Source: Halapricum sp. CBA1109 (lineage in GTDB: Archaea > Halobacteriota > Halobacteria > Halobacteriales > Haloarculaceae). Taken from it: a stretch of 49,065 bases of DNA. The notes beneath the pieces were generated by a model. It ran no database searches and was not told the origin of the DNA. It saw only the letters and a list, made by a program, of their open reading frames with translations. Within the stretch, counting starts at the first letter, position 1. The number at the start of each line of letters is the position of its first letter. Location of the stretch: assembly GCF_009741825.1 (NCBI RefSeq), contig NZ_WPCA01000004.1, positions 1-49,065 on the forward strand, given 5' to 3'. Below are positions 9,082-17,875 of this stretch, in pieces. The translations under genes were made by a program, and so were the position numbers.

Positions 9082-10649
9082 GTATCATCCTCTACGGTGT
9101 GGCGGCCTCTATCATCGTGATGCTCGCGGTGGGGTTCTACGTCTCAAAGAAGATCAACGGGGACAGCATCAACTACATCGTGGCCGGACGGGGGTTGATC
9201 CTGCCCCTCGCCGCCGCGACGTTGATGGCCCAGTCACTGGACGCGAACGCGACGCTGGGGAACACCGACCTCACGGCGTCGTTCGGTTTCTGGGCCGGCG
9301 CGGCGCTGCCGATCGGGTTGGCGACGTGTCTGTTCATCACGGGCGCCTTCTTCGCCAAGCCGATGAACCGGATGAACCTCACGACCCTGCCGGACTTCTA
9401 CCGGCGCAAGTACGGCCACACGACCGAGATTCTGGCGAGCGTCATCATGGCCACCGCCTACGCCTTCCTGCTGGCCGGGAACCTCGTCGCCGGCGGATAC
9501 CTCTTCCAGACGTTCGTCGGGACGAGTTACACCGTGGGCGTCCTCTTCATCACGGTCATCGTGTTCGCCTATACCATCGCGGGCGGGTTGTTCGCGGTGG
9601 CGTACACCGACGTCATCCAAGCGGCCGTCGCCTTCGTCGGGTCCATCGCGCTGATCATCTTCGTGGCGACGAACTACGGCATCACCATCCCCAGCGGGAT
9701 GGGGCCGGCCAACCTCGGGCAGTTGACCGACCCGAGCCAAGGGGCGTACATCAACCTCGCGACCATCGTGGCGCTGGGGCTCGGTGACATCGTCGCCATC
9801 GACTTCATGGAGCGGGTGTTCGCGGCAGACAGCCCCGAGACGGCCCAGCGGGCCTGCTTCATCGGCGGTATCGGGACGCTCGTCATCGGGATTCCGTTCT
9901 CCATCGTCGCGCTCTCGTCCGGATCGATCCTGAGTTCGCTGGGCGTCGCCGCGGGCGATCAGGCGGTCCTGTACGTCCTCCTGCAAAACGCCGTCCCGCC
10001 GTGGCTCGCGGCGTTGGTCATCGCCGGCATCGTCGCCGCGTCGTTCTCGACCAGCGACGGTGCGATCCTCGGCACCTCGGCGGTTATGGCGCGGAACGTC
10101 CTCGGCGTCCGCGTCGACGAGGAGAAAGCCGCCGACTCGCAGGTCGCCGCCGACGGCGGCACCGAGAGCAAAGGCTGGTTCGGCAGCGGCAGCGACAAAC
10201 TCCTCAAGACCACGCGCCTGATGGCGATTCCGTTCACGCTGCTGGGCGTGTTCTTCGCGCTGCGGGTCTCGGCGACCGGGATGTTGCTCGTGTTGGCGTT
10301 CGACATCATGCTCGCCGGCGCGCTGGTGCCGCTGGTCTTTGGCCTCTACTGGCCGAGCCTCGCAAACACGCCCGCGGCCATCACCTCGATGGTCGCCGGG
10401 TCGCTGACCCGACTCGTGTTTTTCGTCCTCGTGCCGACGACCTACGCCTACGAGAACACGCTGCTGTACATCGAGAACGGTATCTTCACGGCGTCGTTCG
10501 ACGGCCTGCCGACGTTCATCGCCGCCGCGGTGAGCCTCGTCGTCTTCGTCGTCGTCGGCTTCGCCACCCGGAGTAGCTACGGGCCGCGCGCCCTCGACGA
10601 GGAGGGCCACCGGACTGTCGTCGCGGGCGGCGACGACGGCGACGACTAG
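9078..10649 (+). CDS. Sodium:solute symporter (SSS family)
   Basis: A 523-residue membrane protein with about 13 hydrophobic segments and the SSS fold: N-terminal ILYGVAASIIVMLAVGFYVSKK, the FVAGRG-like INYIVAGRGLILPLAAATLMAQSLDANATLG, the family pattern around GGLFAVAYTDVIQAAV, and GIVAASFSTSDGAILGTSAVMARNVLG. These transporters use the sodium gradient to import organic solutes, including urea-related compounds, amino acids and sugars. The substrate cannot be read from sequence; its position between the urease operon and an agmatinase-type gene suggests a guanidino compound or urea. A 33-residue ORF overlaps its start codon. The frame is intact and the C-terminus is an acidic cytoplasmic tail. 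Confidence 0.85.
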   Translation: MSIILYGVAASIIVMLAVGFYVSKKINGDSINYIVAGRGLILPLAAATLMAQSLDANATLGNTDLTASFGFWAGAALPIGLATCLFITGAFFAKPMNRMNLTTLPDFYRRKYGHTTEILASVIMATAYAFLLAGNLVAGGYLFQTFVGTSYTVGVLFITVIVFAYTIAGGLFAVAYTDVIQAAVAFVGSIALIIFVATNYGITIPSGMGPANLGQLTDPSQGAYINLATIVALGLGDIVAIDFMERVFAADSPETAQRACFIGGIGTLVIGIPFSIVALSSGSILSSLGVAAGDQAVLYVLLQNAVPPWLAALVIAGIVAASFSTSDGAILGTSAVMARNVLGVRVDEEKAADSQVAADGGTESKGWFGSGSDKLLKTTRLMAIPFTLLGVFFALRVSATGMLLVLAFDIMLAGALVPLVFGLYWPSLANTPAAITSMVAGSLTRLVFFVLVPTTYAYENTLLYIENGIFTASFDGLPTFIAAAVSLVVFVVVGFATRSSYGPRALDEEGHRTVVAGGDDGDD

Positions 10650-13301: not shown

Positions 13302-13342
13302 TTAACCAACAAACTGACGGTACTGGCGCACTTGTTGGTTAA
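13302..13342. repeat. Long inverted repeat LIR-1 (TTAACCAACAA arms)
   Basis: TTAACCAACAA (13302-13312) and its exact reverse complement TTGTTGGTTAA (13332-13342) are separated by 19 bases. The element ends 7 bases before the start of the small gene at 13350. Two more copies occur at 16428 and 17835. The arms are AT-rich in a GC-rich genome and the spacers are unrelated, which points to a protein-binding site rather than a duplicated sequence. Confidence 0.8.
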
Positions 13343-13349
13343 CAACGCG

Positions 13350-13673
13350 ATGACCGACGAACGCCCGGAACCACCCGATTCGGTGGCCGACGGCCTGGCC
13401 GAACGACTCGCCGACTACTCCCCGGAGACGTTACGCGATATCGCCACCTACGCCGACGAACTGGCCGCGTACCGAGAGGGGGCGACAGAAAAAGAGGGCG
13501 AGAGGCCCGACGAAGCCGAACGCGACAGGCCCGAGAGTCGGCCGGAGGGCGTGCCCGGGAAGGCGACACTCACGGTCAAGGAGATAAACGGCAACCGCTA
13601 CTACTACTGGCAGTGGCGGGAGGGCGACACAGTCACCTCACAGTACAAGGAACCCGTGAACGACGGGGAGTAG
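13350..13673 (+). CDS. Small acidic origin-associated protein (YYYWQW family)
   Basis: A 107-residue protein. The N-terminal half is helical and acidic (GLAERLADYSPETLRDIATY...), the centre is a charged low-complexity linker, and the C-terminus is a compact beta region, ATLTVKEINGNRYYYWQWREG. I believe such proteins are catalogued as DUF6788, from memory only. No function is known to me. A second copy follows at 16478, also directly downstream of an inverted repeat, and the two flank the orc1/cdc6 gene. A role in origin control or DNA binding is inference from position only. Confidence 0.75.
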   Translation: MTDERPEPPDSVADGLAERLADYSPETLRDIATYADELAAYREGATEKEGERPDEAERDRPESRPEGVPGKATLTVKEINGNRYYYWQWREGDTVTSQYKEPVNDGE

Positions 13674-13705: not shown

Positions 13706-14135
13706 CCCCCCACTGTTTCATCCCAATCCGGGGAGCGACTGAGTCACACCCCACTGTTTCATCCCACGAGCGATACCGTGGCCTCGACGACCGGTAGTGC
13801 CGTGGGTCCCATCGGATGCAACCGTCCCGAGGTAGCGACGCACACACCCCCACTTTTTCATATCAAGCAGTGTCACCCGGAAGGTCCTCACACACCCCAC
13901 CGTTTCATCCCAGACACTTCCTCTCAATGGACACCCACCCCCACTTTTTCATATCAGTCCTTCTTCTCAGGGGACCCCCGTCCCTCGCTCTGTCGTCGCA
14001 GCTACGCTCTTTCGAGCGTCCACCACCCCCACTTTTTCATATCAGACAGTCACTCACAGGGTATCCTTCCCCACCCCCACTTTTTCATCCCAGATGACGT
14101 GTCCCGGGGCATCCCACCCCCACTGTTTCGTCCCA
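13706..14135 (+). repeat. Array of eight ORB-like repeats (family A) downstream of orc1/cdc6
   Basis: Eight copies of CCCCACTNTTTCATNYCA, all in the same orientation, start at about 13708, 13749, 13848, 13895, 13939, 14027, 14075 and 14118. Spacing is 40-48 bases with two gaps near twice that, so the array looks phased. Variants are CTGTTTCATCCCA, CTTTTTCATATCA and CTTTTTCATCCCA. The last copy ends 1-2 bases from the orc1/cdc6 stop codon. Two well-matched copies in opposite orientation flank the AT-rich region upstream of that gene, so these are best read as origin recognition boxes for its product. No gene lies in 13674-14136. Confidence 0.8.
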
Positions 14136-14136
14136 A

Positions 14137-15636
14137 TCAGAAGGAGTCGACGCTCGTCTGGGTGTCGCCGTCGTCGTCGGTGAGTGTACTGAACGTGTCG
14201 ATCAGTTCCTCGGGGAGGAGATTCTCCCCGGGGCCCGTCGGGTCGGAGTCCCGGAGCGTCTGGATCACCATCTGGTAGTCGGCCTTGTCGAGGTCGTACT
14301 CGAAGCCGGACTCCCCCGGTCCCTTGTAGGCGTCGTGGCGTTCGAGTAGACCGAGTTGGGACATCTCCTTGAGGTAGTCGGCGACCCGCCGGGGGACGTT
14401 GGAGTTGTCGAGCAACGCCCCGGAGAACCGCTTGTAAGTCGGGTAGAGGTCGCTCCGGGAGATGGGCGTCTCCTCGCGCAGGTCGTGGAACATCACCGCC
14501 GCGAGGACGAGTTGTTCCTGTGAGCTGAGGTCGTTGGTCACCTCGTAGACCCTGTCGCGCTCTTTCTCCTCGTGGGCCTGCCGGACGTGTTGCTCACCGA
14601 CCACGTCGTCCTCGTTTTTCTTCGCTTTCATCCCGGCCTTCTGGAGAAGATCGATGGCGTAGCGCGCGTCACCGCCCTGTTTTCTGGCGTAGGCAGACGC
14701 GAGCGGAACGATGTCCTCGGAGTAAGCCTCGGGTTTGAACGCCAGTTCCGCGCGCTGATAGAGAATCTCGCGCAACTGATCCACGTCGTATTTTTTGAAC
14801 GTGATCTCCTTGAGACGCAGCGAGGAGTCGGTCTTGGACTGGATACTCTCCTTGTAGCCGATGTCGTTGCTGATCCCGATGATCGACGGGAGGACGTCCT
14901 CGACGCGGTTGTTCGTCCTGCTCCGGGGAATCTCGTAGAGGAGTTCGTCCCGGGTGCCGATGCGGTCCACCTCGTCGAGGATCACGGTGACGTAGTCCGT
15001 CACCTCCTCGGGTGGCAGGATGTCGTGAGCTGACTCGAAGTGTTCGCGGACGGAATCGGGATCGACGTCCACGCCCTCCGGGAGCGGTTCGTCCCCGAGG
15101 AGGTGAGCCGCCGTCAGATCGGCGTCGTAGTCGCTCTCCGCCAGGGCCCCCTCCATCTCCTGGCGATAGGCCGTGTTTTCGTACGTGAGTGCGTCGAGAA
15201 TCTCGAAGAGGATGTCGTAGACGCGCTCTTTCGGGAGTCCGGAACTCGGGAGGACGTCCCGTTCGATGCTGATCTCCTCGCGCAAAAAGGAGTAGTCCGG
15301 GTCCTCCAGAAACCGGTTCGCGATGGCGATAGCGGCCTGATAGGAACTGCTCAGCGATTCGCAGTTCTGGTAGACGAACGTGGCGTGGACGTCGTCGTAT
15401 CGTTCGAGTGCGTTCTCCAGTTCCCTGCGTTTGAACCGGATCGAGACGGTCTTGCCCGTGCCGCTGATGCCGTAGATGAAGGCGTTGACCGGTTGCTCGT
15501 TGTCGACTATCTGCTGGAACACCTCGCTGATCTCGTCGAGTTCGTGGTCCCGGCCGAGAACCTCCTCGGGGACGTAGTCTTCGGCCAAGACCTGTGTGTC
15601 CTCGAACGGCGAGTTCTCGGTCCGGGTGAAGGTCAT
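14137..15636 (-). CDS. Orc1/Cdc6 family replication initiator
   Basis: A 499-residue AAA+ initiator that binds ORB repeats and opens the origin. Walker A is GISGTGKT (56-63), Walker B VILDEVD (218-224) and sensor 1 the Asn of GISNDI (about 257); the last 130 residues are the winged-helix domain. Between Walker A and B it has about 60 more residues than usual, an acidic insertion at roughly 150-213 just before Walker B. The N-terminus TENSPFEDTQVLAEDYVPEEVLGRD is the normal family start, so ATG 15636 is favoured over the much longer open frame upstream, which runs through the repeat and AT-rich DNA. The sequence is unlike the main Orc1-1 type, suggesting one of the divergent paralogues with its own cognate boxes. 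Confidence 0.93.
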   Translation of the reverse strand: MTFTRTENSPFEDTQVLAEDYVPEEVLGRDHELDEISEVFQQIVDNEQPVNAFIYGISGTGKTVSIRFKRRELENALERYDDVHATFVYQNCESLSSSYQAAIAIANRFLEDPDYSFLREEISIERDVLPSSGLPKERVYDILFEILDALTYENTAYRQEMEGALAESDYDADLTAAHLLGDEPLPEGVDVDPDSVREHFESAHDILPPEEVTDYVTVILDEVDRIGTRDELLYEIPRSRTNNRVEDVLPSIIGISNDIGYKESIQSKTDSSLRLKEITFKKYDVDQLREILYQRAELAFKPEAYSEDIVPLASAYARKQGGDARYAIDLLQKAGMKAKKNEDDVVGEQHVRQAHEEKERDRVYEVTNDLSSQEQLVLAAVMFHDLREETPISRSDLYPTYKRFSGALLDNSNVPRRVADYLKEMSQLGLLERHDAYKGPGESGFEYDLDKADYQMVIQTLRDSDPTGPGENLLPEELIDTFSTLTDDDGDTQTSVDSF

Positions 15637-15671: not shown

Positions 15672-15696
15672 ACCCTTTCATTCCTTTCATACCACC

Positions 15697-15757
15697 CACC
15701 GGAGTTTCATACCAGAGATTCTTTAAGTCCCCCCTGTCCCCCCACTTTTTCATCCCA
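15697..15757 (+). repeat. ORB-like repeats (family A), left edge of the origin
   Basis: A degenerate copy, CCACCGGAGTTTCATACCA (about 15697-15714), and a near-consensus copy, CCCCACTTTTTCATCCCA (15740-15757), preceded by a C-rich string. The second forms an inverted pair with the copy at 16333-16350, with C/G strings pointing away from the AT-rich DNA between them. That is the arrangement known from archaeal origins. Confidence 0.75.
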
Positions 15758-15760
15758 GAT

Positions 15761-15794
15761 GGGGAAAAAGAGGGGGTGGGGGGAGGGGGTGGGG
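15761..15794 (+). other. G-run tract with G-quadruplex potential
   Basis: Five runs of four to six G separated by one to six bases lie immediately beside the left ORB-like box. A shorter G tract follows the right box at 16346-16360. They could be extended G-strings of the recognition boxes or form quadruplexes on the unwound strand. Confidence 0.5.
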
Positions 15795-15926
15795 AAAGAT
15801 ATATAAGAGAGGTTGGGGTCAGAGGGCTATTTTCGGACGACCGGTACGTCGGTACGGCGGTACGGCGGTACAGCCGGAGGTTGGTGCGACCCAGGAACCA
15901 CCCGTACCCTATCCGATTGGTGTTAT

Positions 15927-16202
15927 CTAGGAAGCACGCCTCCGTTCTAGTGGCTCTAGATTGAGCGCGGTTCACTCTACTTCACCTAGACTATCACAAC
16001 AAGCTGTATATTCTACTCTAGCTATGTGCTAGCATACTAGTTCGTGTCTAGTCTGGAATAGATTGATTTTGACCCTATATTTATATTTTATGGTATATGC
16101 AATATATACATATACATTACTAAAGAGAATAGAATGAAGAGAAATTATAACTACCACCACACTACTTATACTTGTTCCTTATGAAACAGACACCCGTCCT
16201 AG
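15927..16202. other. Cluster of CTAG tetranucleotides in the origin
   Basis: CTAG occurs nine times in 276 bases, starting at 15927, 15947, 15956, 15986, 16018, 16029, 16037, 16048 and 16199. By eye I find only about twenty others in the rest of the 49 kb. CTAG is generally scarce in haloarchaeal genomes and is a methylation target of a widespread orphan methyltransferase there, so this concentration in the origin is unlikely to be chance. Confidence 0.75.
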
Positions 16203-16332
16203 AACACGCTTTCAGCACTTCTACTCTTGGTATAGGTCCTATTCCCATTCTCCCACCGATCTAAACACCTCTCTTTATATGTCCCAATTCTCATCCCCGG
16301 GGGCCCCTCCCCCTCCCCTCTCTCACGCCATC

Positions 16333-16350
16333 TGGTATGAAAAAGTGGGG
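16333..16350 (-). repeat. ORB-like repeat (family A), right edge of the origin
   Basis: TGGTATGAAAAAGTGGGG followed by a further G-rich string is the reverse complement of the family A consensus. It is the only family A copy in this orientation and forms the inverted pair with 15740-15757. Confidence 0.75.
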
Positions 16351-16427
16351 GGAGGGGGTGTCCGAACAGTCCCATCAGTTCCTCGATCTCCCGGGAGTCG
16401 GCCGGAATATCGAACCACTCCCGAATC

Positions 16428-16467
16428 TTAACCAACAAACACTCCCGCTCCGGCCGTTGTTGGTTAA
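16428..16467. repeat. Long inverted repeat LIR-2 (TTAACCAACAA arms)
   Basis: TTAACCAACAA (16428-16438) and TTGTTGGTTAA (16457-16467), 18 bases apart, with arms identical to LIR-1. It ends 10 bases before the ATG of the second small YYYWQW gene, the same arrangement as LIR-1. Confidence 0.8.
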
Positions 16468-16477
16468 CACGACGCCG

Positions 16478-16797
16478 ATGTCCTACTAGCCCCCGCACGC
16501 CGGCGGAACTCCCGACAGATCTCATCAACACACTCAACGGCTACTCGCCGGACCAGCTCCAGCACGTCGCGCGCTACGCCGAGGATCTGGCCGAGCACAA
16601 ATCTCGTGAAGCCCGCCTCGAGGAGGAGTCGGAGGACGACGAGATCGACGAGCGGCCGGACGACCTTCCGGACGACGTCCCGTCGAAGGCCACGATCACG
16701 ATCAAGGAGATCAACGACAACCGCTACTACTACTGGCAGTGGCAGGAAGGTGACAAAGTGAAGTCAAAGAGGGGATCGTCGGCGGGATCCCCGTAGC
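16478..16797 (+). pseudogene. Second small YYYWQW-family gene, frame-disrupted near its start
   Basis: The frame ending at TAG 16795-16797 encodes TPAELPTDLINTLNGYSPDQ, an acidic linker, then ATITIKEINDNRYYYWQWQEGDKVKSK, clearly homologous to the protein at 13350. The only ATG after LIR-2 (16478) is out of frame and meets a TAG three codons later. Deleting one base just after it would give MPTSPRTPAELPTDL, a good start. The last eight residues also diverge from the paralogue. Either a sequencing error or a recently broken copy; the intact, conserved body favours an error. Confidence 0.6.
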
Positions 16798-17012
16798 GGC
16801 CGTCAAAGTCAGAGAGTTGGGACGGTTCCTCAGCCATCAATATCAGACATCGCGGATGGGACCTACTTAATGATTTGGCTACCTCGACAAGAGTGTAAAT
16901 CGGGCTATGGTCGTCTTCTGATGTTTTGTCGCTGGCGTATCATCCTCACGAAAGGTCGAGTCGGTCCCGAGTGAAATCGGATTCGGAGCGAGAGTTACCG
17001 ACGCAAACCGGT

Positions 17013-17165
17013 ACCCCCAATCCAGAGTGAAAGCGCCGGACCGGAGCGGGTTTGACACACCCCTCGTCCAGAGTGAAAGCGTCGGTGTGACGAGCTGGAG
17101 TGGATTGGGATCCTCGAGTGATGCTGACGAGCGTTCGTCGGCACCCCCAATCAAGAGTGAAGACG
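17013..17165 (+). repeat. Three ORB-like repeats of a second type (family B)
   Basis: Three direct copies of a C-string followed by CAGAGTGAAAGCG: ACCCCCAATCCAGAGTGAAA at 17013, ACACCCCTCGTCCAGAGTGA at 17057, and a weaker ACCCCCAATCAAGAGTGAAG at 17143. The core differs completely from family A, but the layout (core plus C/G string) is the same. The surrounding 16798-17990 region has no convincing gene. Confidence 0.7.
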
Positions 17166-17364
17166 CAGGGCAGATCTCCAGCCGAAGCAAAGCAGGGTAC
17201 AATCGGAACTGTCGGGATCGGGTATCTTGATTTCGATTGACGAAGGAGATCGGGAGATACCAATCCCGATTTCGGCTTTGATGCCGGTTCGCTGGTTAGC
17301 GAATAGTTAGAATAGCGATTGTTAATTCAATATGTCATAATACGTGGACGATAGAATCGAACCC

Positions 17365-17390
17365 CACACCCCTCGTCCAGAGTGAAACGC
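17365..17390 (+). repeat. ORB-like repeat family B, left member of an inverted pair
   Basis: CACCCCTCGTCCAGAGTGAA, near-identical to the copy at 17057. Together with the reversed copy at 17766 it flanks an AT-rich gene-free stretch, C/G strings outward, like the family A pair. Confidence 0.72.
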
Positions 17391-17765: not shown

Positions 17766-17790
17766 TTTCACTCTGGACGAGGGGTGTGTG
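17766..17790 (-). repeat. ORB-like repeat family B, right member of an inverted pair
   Basis: TTTCACTCTGGACGAGGGGT followed by GTGTG is the exact reverse complement of the family B consensus at 17057 and 17365. Confidence 0.72.
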
Positions 17791-17834
17791 GGCGAAGTAT
17801 TCTCTCCAGCTCCCTTCCGTGTCTCTACCCAGTA

Positions 17835-17875
17835 TTAACCAACAACTCTCCCGATACCTCGATGGTGTTGGTTAA
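17835..17875. repeat. Long inverted repeat LIR-3 (TTAACCAACA arms)
   Basis: TTAACCAACA (17835-17844) and TGTTGGTTAA (17866-17875), 21 bases apart. Same arms as LIR-1 and LIR-2 over ten bases. No small YYYWQW gene follows it; the next gene is the DsbA-like protein 115 bases on. Confidence 0.75.

Follow-up and report, generated by a model that had tools for sequence, protein, structure and literature searches.

Clustered CTAG sites between inverted ORBs at a putative secondary replication origin of Halapricum sp. CBA1109 and their association with an orphan-type methyltransferase in haloarchaea

CTAG clusters near orc1/cdc6 genes and the anatomy of the window locus

Clusters of CTAG sites upstream of haloarchaeal orc1/cdc6 genes were reported by Blow et al. 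2016 (PLoS Genet, PMC4752239, Fig. 6D), who found them to be correlated with an orphan m4C methyltransferase and proposed that they have a role in replication. The motif is printed as CATG in the running text of that article and as CTAG in the figure legend (PMC4752239). In Haloarcula marismortui and Haloferax mediterranei, the motif has been described as methylated to m4CTAG (PMC6606915), and the enzyme family produces m4CTAG in related species (PMC6606915, PMC5867850). In Haloferax volcanii, where only oriC2 is CTAG-dense, deletion of the methyltransferase gene HVO_0794 caused no growth defect (Ouellette et al. 2018, PMC5867850).

The locus described here lies in a 49,065-nucleotide stretch of Halapricum sp. 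CBA1109 DNA (hereafter, the window) and has the following features. In the list, ORB stands for Orc1/Cdc6-binding box.

13707..14139, + strand: array of 8 additional ORB copies (repeat family D1), 3′ of orc1
14137..15636, − strand: orc1/cdc6 initiator gene, 499 aa (TIGR02928, E=1.7e-90; Cdc6_lid, AAA, and Cdc6_C domains)
15685..15714, + strand: two half-ORBs, TTTCATACCA, close upstream of the orc1 start
15732..15786, + strand: left ORB with G-string, forming the left inverted-repeat arm (CCCCCACTTTTTCATCCCAGATG at 15739-15761)
15927..16202, unstranded: CTAG cluster of 9 sites, all but one of which fall within 15927-16051
16060..16190, unstranded: AT-rich stretch (26% GC) without CTAG, by its composition a probable duplex-unwinding element
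16304..16358, − strand: right ORB with G-string, forming the right inverted-repeat arm (inverted repeat I1)

The two arms of inverted repeat I1 are 55 nt long and 80% complementary, and each contains an ORB of the form CCCCCACTTTTTCATNCCA plus G-strings; the left ORB is also a member of repeat family D1. Upstream of orc1/cdc6, the inverted ORBs enclose both the CTAG cluster and the AT-rich stretch. An ORB/G-string pair around an AT-rich stretch, adjoining an orc1/cdc6 gene, is the arrangement by which orc1/cdc6-adjacent haloarchaeal origins are recognized, and we infer from these three elements (orc1, ORBs, AT-rich stretch) that the locus is a secondary origin of this type. The first-pass annotation of the window had placed the CTAG sites inside the origin, a placement to which the anatomy lends substance.

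By sequence match, the window Orc is a member of a rare and patchy lineage, distinct from the Orc1 of oriC1. Matches at E<=1e-140 were found in only 3 of the 243 genomes of the order and in none of the Haloarcula-type genomes searched; therefore, the locus would be a patchy secondary origin and not oriC1. At the closest orthologous locus (L035), a similar ORB array is located at positions 9803-10131, and the left and right boxes are also present. In Haloarcula hispanica (PMC3936714), the AT-rich cores of oriC1 and oriC2 are likewise flanked by inverted ORBs that have G-strings, and the Cdc6-titrating oriC2D resembles the window's array in being ORB-rich and downstream of an orc gene. The passages of that account consulted make no mention of CTAG, in which the window origin differs.

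Other repeats were observed around the window orc1 gene. An interrupted palindrome of about 41 nt, TTAACCAACAA-N-TTGTTGGTTAA, is present in three copies (13302-13342, 16428-16467, and 17835-17875), two of which are just upstream of paired small open reading frames (ORFs); it is possibly an operator or a replicon-boundary element. Two paralogous small acidic ORFs flank orc1 (13350-13673 and about 16490-16796; 76% DNA identity over 121 nt), both ending in a KEINxNRYYYWQWxEGD-type motif. Neither the ORF at 13332-13673 nor the C-terminal 99 aa of its paralogue has a Pfam match. A second repeat family, CACACCCCTCGTCCAGAGTGAAA, with four direct copies and one inverted copy around another AT-rich stretch (17010-17387 and 17766-17791), is possibly a second set of initiator boxes; that region has only 2 CTAG sites.

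CTAG sites in the window and in the Halapricum genome

The nine CTAG sites of the cluster start at positions 15927, 15947, 15956, 15986, 16018, 16029, 16037, 16048, and 16199. Their number and bounds are exactly those given by the first-pass annotation, and its by-eye estimate of around twenty further copies in the window corresponds to 21 counted. CTAG is indeed rare, with 30 sites observed in the whole window (9 in the cluster and 21 elsewhere) versus 157 expected from window composition. In the cluster region (15927-16202; 37% GC), 0.91 sites are expected from local composition. Nine sites were matched in none of 20,000 mono-nucleotide shuffles of this 276-bp region and were reached in 0.075% of first-order Markov simulations, the latter being a conservative test because a model trained on the region itself learns its CT, TA, and AG steps. 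Since these bounds were picked by eye after the sites had been seen, the count was repeated between limits set by the ORBs on either side (15762-16331). Within them, CTAG occurs 9 times versus 2.2 expected (Poisson P = 5e-4), while each of the seven other A/C/G/T palindromes, which are matched in composition, occurs 0 to 5 times.

Eight of the nine sites are packed into 125 bp that adjoin the most AT-rich stretch, which itself has none; the cluster is beside the putative unwinding region, as had been claimed, and not within it. The first-pass annotation had also named similar clusters in many AT-rich non-origin regions as an outcome that would count against its interpretation. CTAG density climbs with AT content. 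In the window, AT-rich segments outside the origin have at most 2 sites per 276 bp. The orc1 gene (1.5 kb) has no CTAG versus 5 expected.

To extend the analysis to whole genomes, we used as the statistic not every CTAG but triplets, defined as three CTAG with gaps of <=25 bases. The 2.97-Mb Halapricum assembly has five triplet loci, four of which are upstream of orc1/cdc6 genes (C211, C213, C216, which is the window, and C245), a coincidence with P of about 4e-9 under random placement. The clusters are a mark of origins and not of just any AT-rich DNA, and in this single genome origins that are not orthologous to one another have CTAG clustering in common. C213 has 5 CTAG and C245 has 8; C245 is identified as oriC1 from its conserved Orc1, found in 169 of 170 haloarchaea, and from signal-peptidase and PolD small-subunit neighbors read from translations. 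C211 has 11 CTAG in 300 bp, and its neighbors are a ParA-like gene and an orc gene that is broken; in this region (L028, 13582-16849), an orc gene with an internal stop or frameshift is followed by a second, intact orc gene, and the 11-CTAG intergenic region is upstream. The fifth triplet locus (C133) is away from any orc gene, in a place where long open reading frames overlap it.

In the relative G060, oriC1 is the sole triplet locus of the 3.1-Mb genome; in the same-genus genome G184, six of the eight triplet matches are at oriC1. Three triplet loci away from orc genes were found in G148. On a secondary replicon of G139, a genome without the CTAG methyltransferase, triplets (C3:254797-254819 and C3:378879-378909) precede plasmid orc genes by about 0.5-0.8 kb; perhaps this replicon recently moved from an enzyme-positive host.

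The CTAG methyltransferase and oriC1 in other haloarchaea

The Halapricum genome has an intact gene for a beta-class N4/N6 methyltransferase (G000:C259:10735-11751; PF01555), which we infer from family membership to be a putative orphan-type CTAG methyltransferase of the zim/HVO_0794 family. Its assignment to the family draws on the beta-class motif order (TSPPY before DPFxGxG) and on the known pattern of presence and absence, and its TSPPYP and DPFWGTGTT motifs are invariant or almost so within the family. Methylation of CTAG in Halapricum sp. CBA1109 is likely, because the gene is present and m4CTAG is made in related species. Relatives of the enzyme were found in 156 of 170 haloarchaea, in agreement with the conservation in many haloarchaea that the first-pass annotation had stated. 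Among the named relatives are those of Halobacterium salinarum and several Haloferax. The pattern also agrees with the published absences of the HVO_0794-family enzyme (PMC5867850), which is lacking in Hqr. walsbyi and Hrr. lacusprofundi. All 100 sampled members of the window's family have the enzyme, and a search among them for enzyme-free members as a natural experiment returned none. The 14 enzyme-negative genomes all belong to one Haloferacaceae-type family (f2), and therefore the correlation between enzyme and cluster is phylogenetically confounded.

We examined the regions upstream of the oriC1 orc1 gene in 100 genomes besides our own. Among 26 genomes of the window's family (f1, our own included), CTAG density is highest between 500 and 1,200 bp upstream of this gene, where it reaches 1.7 sites per 100 bp over a background near zero, and no comparable peak exists there for CATG, GTAC, or GATC. 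Using the oriC1 box GAAACGAAGGGGTG with two mismatches allowed, we detected an ORB pair in 94 haloarchaea, and across these CTAG is concentrated inside the pair, the comparison with other haloarchaeal origins that the first-pass annotation had put forward as a check. In the window's family (22 genomes), CTAG density is 17.7 per kb inside the ORB pair versus 0.89 outside (131 sites observed inside, 27.8 expected), and in other enzyme-positive families (42 genomes) it is 12.5 versus 1.19 (113 observed, 33.8 expected), which amounts to 4.7-fold and 3.3-fold enrichment over composition, respectively. Enzyme-positive Haloferacaceae-type genomes (16 genomes) have 6.5 per kb inside versus 0.78 outside (21 observed, 11.7 expected). 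CTAG ranks first among the eight A/C/G/T palindromes inside the ORB pair in all three enzyme-positive groups.

In the 14 enzyme-negative genomes, CTAG density is 1.3 per kb inside the ORB pair versus 0.50 outside, and the difference from the enzyme-positive genomes of the same family is significant inside the pair (P = 6e-4). The presence of CTAG inside the oriC1 ORB pair tracks the presence of the enzyme, a conclusion that these data support. A plain count in 300 bp upstream of orc1 within this family gives a weaker correlation with the enzyme (P = 0.007; genus means, P = 0.04). In the enzyme-negative oriC1 regions (e.g., L050, L052, and L058), CTAG is below expectation inside the ORB pair (4 versus 11.2), and without the enzyme it looks avoided there and not neutral. 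GATC was considered as a substitute in CTAG-enzyme-negative genomes that have a Dam-like (PF02086) gene and was rejected: 14 sites were counted inside the ORB pair versus 9.1 expected, with equal or greater enrichment outside.

In a Haloarcula-type oriC1 (G138), the cluster lies inside an ORB-AT-ORB interval that resembles the mapped minimal oriC1 of H. hispanica (PMC3936714), and the oriC1 regions of Haloarcula and Halorhabdus mostly have 5-8 CTAG. In G184, CTAG immediately abuts ORB-like units. Positions of CTAG sites are conserved within genera, and in aligned oriC1 regions, CTAG is kept in 60% of cases versus 35% for other tetramers, the highest value of the 24 A/C/G/T permutations, although the genome pairs are non-independent. 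Conservation of CTAG at the orthologous position is strong for oriC1, while orthologues of the window origin have only 3 (G240) and 1 (G120) CTAG between the boxes.

No motif extending past CTAG was found around the sites, only a weak A/T preference; a tetramer-specific enzyme would require none. Helical phasing of the site spacing was unconvincing after three tries (best nominal P 0.017 at period 10; 0.33 at 10.5). Many enzyme-positive genomes, mainly of the Haloferacaceae type, have 0-2 oriC1 sites, and some (e.g., G153, G125, and G068) have no oriC1 cluster.

Alternative explanations, proposed role, and comparison with known systems

The main rival explanation, which we consider unlikely, is that CTAG serves the origin as an element of DNA structure, through its kinkable TA step, or of protein binding, with a nucleoid or initiator protein as its partner. 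Methylation would then be incidental, or would follow simply from the enzyme's encounter with its sites. Such a role would fit the separability of enzyme and cluster, seen both in the enzyme-positive genomes without a cluster and in the enzyme-negative genome with triplets near plasmid orc genes, as well as the conserved positions within genera and the contact with ORB-like units in G184. However, the flanks carry no motif past the weak A/T preference, and GTAC, which has the same composition and TA step, is only modestly enriched (38 observed, 27.8 expected in the window's family). Moreover, the CTAG excess is gone from enzyme-negative oriC1 regions even though the ORBs and the AT-rich core persist.

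Variation in CTAG density could also be due to relaxed avoidance, with CTAG selected against genome-wide, mainly in genes, and merely reaching the level set by composition in non-coding AT-rich DNA. The strong depletion in coding DNA, as in the window and its orc1 gene, and the rise of CTAG density with AT content agree with this explanation, which is already disfavored and in our estimate improbable: inside the ORB pair, counts exceed composition 4.7-fold in the window's family and 3.3-fold in other enzyme-positive families, no rebound is seen there for CATG, TGCA, and similar palindromes that are also avoided, and enzyme-negative origins of similar composition remain below expectation. A still less probable proposal is that the sites govern transcription of orc1, and hence initiator supply, and not origin firing. 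The cluster is upstream of orc1, and a Haloferax methylome study found CTAG enriched just upstream of genes (PMC11001535), but about 290-410 bp, with ORB and G-string elements in between, separate the cluster from the orc1 start, and CTAG in oriC1 follows the ORB-ORB interval. Import of the origin cassette from a donor with different CTAG content, raised by Ouellette et al. for H. volcanii oriC2 (PMC5867850) and compatible with the rare and patchy window Orc lineage, is highly improbable, as the cassette is not uniformly CTAG-rich (none in the adjoining orc1 gene) and the vertically inherited oriC1 has the same cluster at the same place in our genome and in family members with an ORB pair.

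That the origin core holds, in this cluster, a selected set of targets for the methyltransferase is well supported. We further hypothesize that initiator loading or opening depends on how these targets are methylated. The sites between the ORBs would be methylated and would turn hemimethylated behind the replication fork, and this change in the DNA that the ORBs flank would alter Orc1/Cdc6 loading or strand opening, directly or via a reader protein. The outcome could be a refractory period, or a mark that tells the cell "this is my origin". Taken as a whole, the proposal of a secondary orc1/cdc6-adjacent origin whose core between inverted ORBs has selectively maintained targets of an orphan m4C CTAG methyltransferase, with methylation state altering initiation, is in our assessment evenly balanced between right and wrong. 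The stronger proposal, that m4C at CTAG between inverted ORBs is a once-per-cycle or self-recognition switch on firing in the window's family and several others, common to non-orthologous origins, is tentative and rather doubtful.

The first-pass annotation had suggested, by analogy with GATC clusters at bacterial oriC, that hemimethylation could time initiation. Its general interpretation gains from the origin anatomy, the intact enzyme gene, the association of clusters with origins, and the tracking of the enzyme by CTAG, but three observations speak against a simple Dam/SeqA analogue: the HVO_0794 deletion has no growth defect (PMC5867850), several enzyme-positive genomes are without an oriC1 cluster, and an enzyme-negative genome has triplets next to orc genes of a plasmid. 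H. volcanii is a poor place to look for an origin effect, because Haloferacaceae-type genomes have few oriC1 sites.

The idea is a rediscovery of that of Blow et al. 2016, with which our observations agree in motif, position relative to orc1/cdc6, enzyme family, and correlation with enzyme presence; the Halapricum genome combines non-coding enrichment upstream of orc1/cdc6 with the enzyme, as do the CTAG-clustered origins of that study. In contrast to that study, we placed the cluster between inverted ORBs, compared it with composition-matched palindromes, measured site conservation, found it both at oriC1 and at a secondary origin of a rare kind, and recorded CTAG triplets close to plasmid orc genes in one genome that lacks the enzyme. 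New here are the ORB-ORB confinement, which opens the way to a precise and cheap test, the composition-matched controls, the site-conservation test, the lack of a GATC substitute in Dam-positive genomes, and the clustering common to non-orthologous origins of one genome.

We know of no SeqA-like reader of hemimethylated origins in archaea. Similar to the Dam/SeqA system at E. coli oriC, the window origin has clustered palindromic methylation targets beside a probable unwinding element, and the genome has an orphan methyltransferase gene. The two systems differ in that the mark would be m4C at CTAG here and is m6A at GATC there, in that CTAG is rare outside origins while Dam sites are common in E. 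coli, and in that the CTAG enzyme is dispensable in H. volcanii. If the switch on firing exists, it would be an archaeal counterpart of Dam/SeqA that evolved with a different base, a different motif, and a different initiator.
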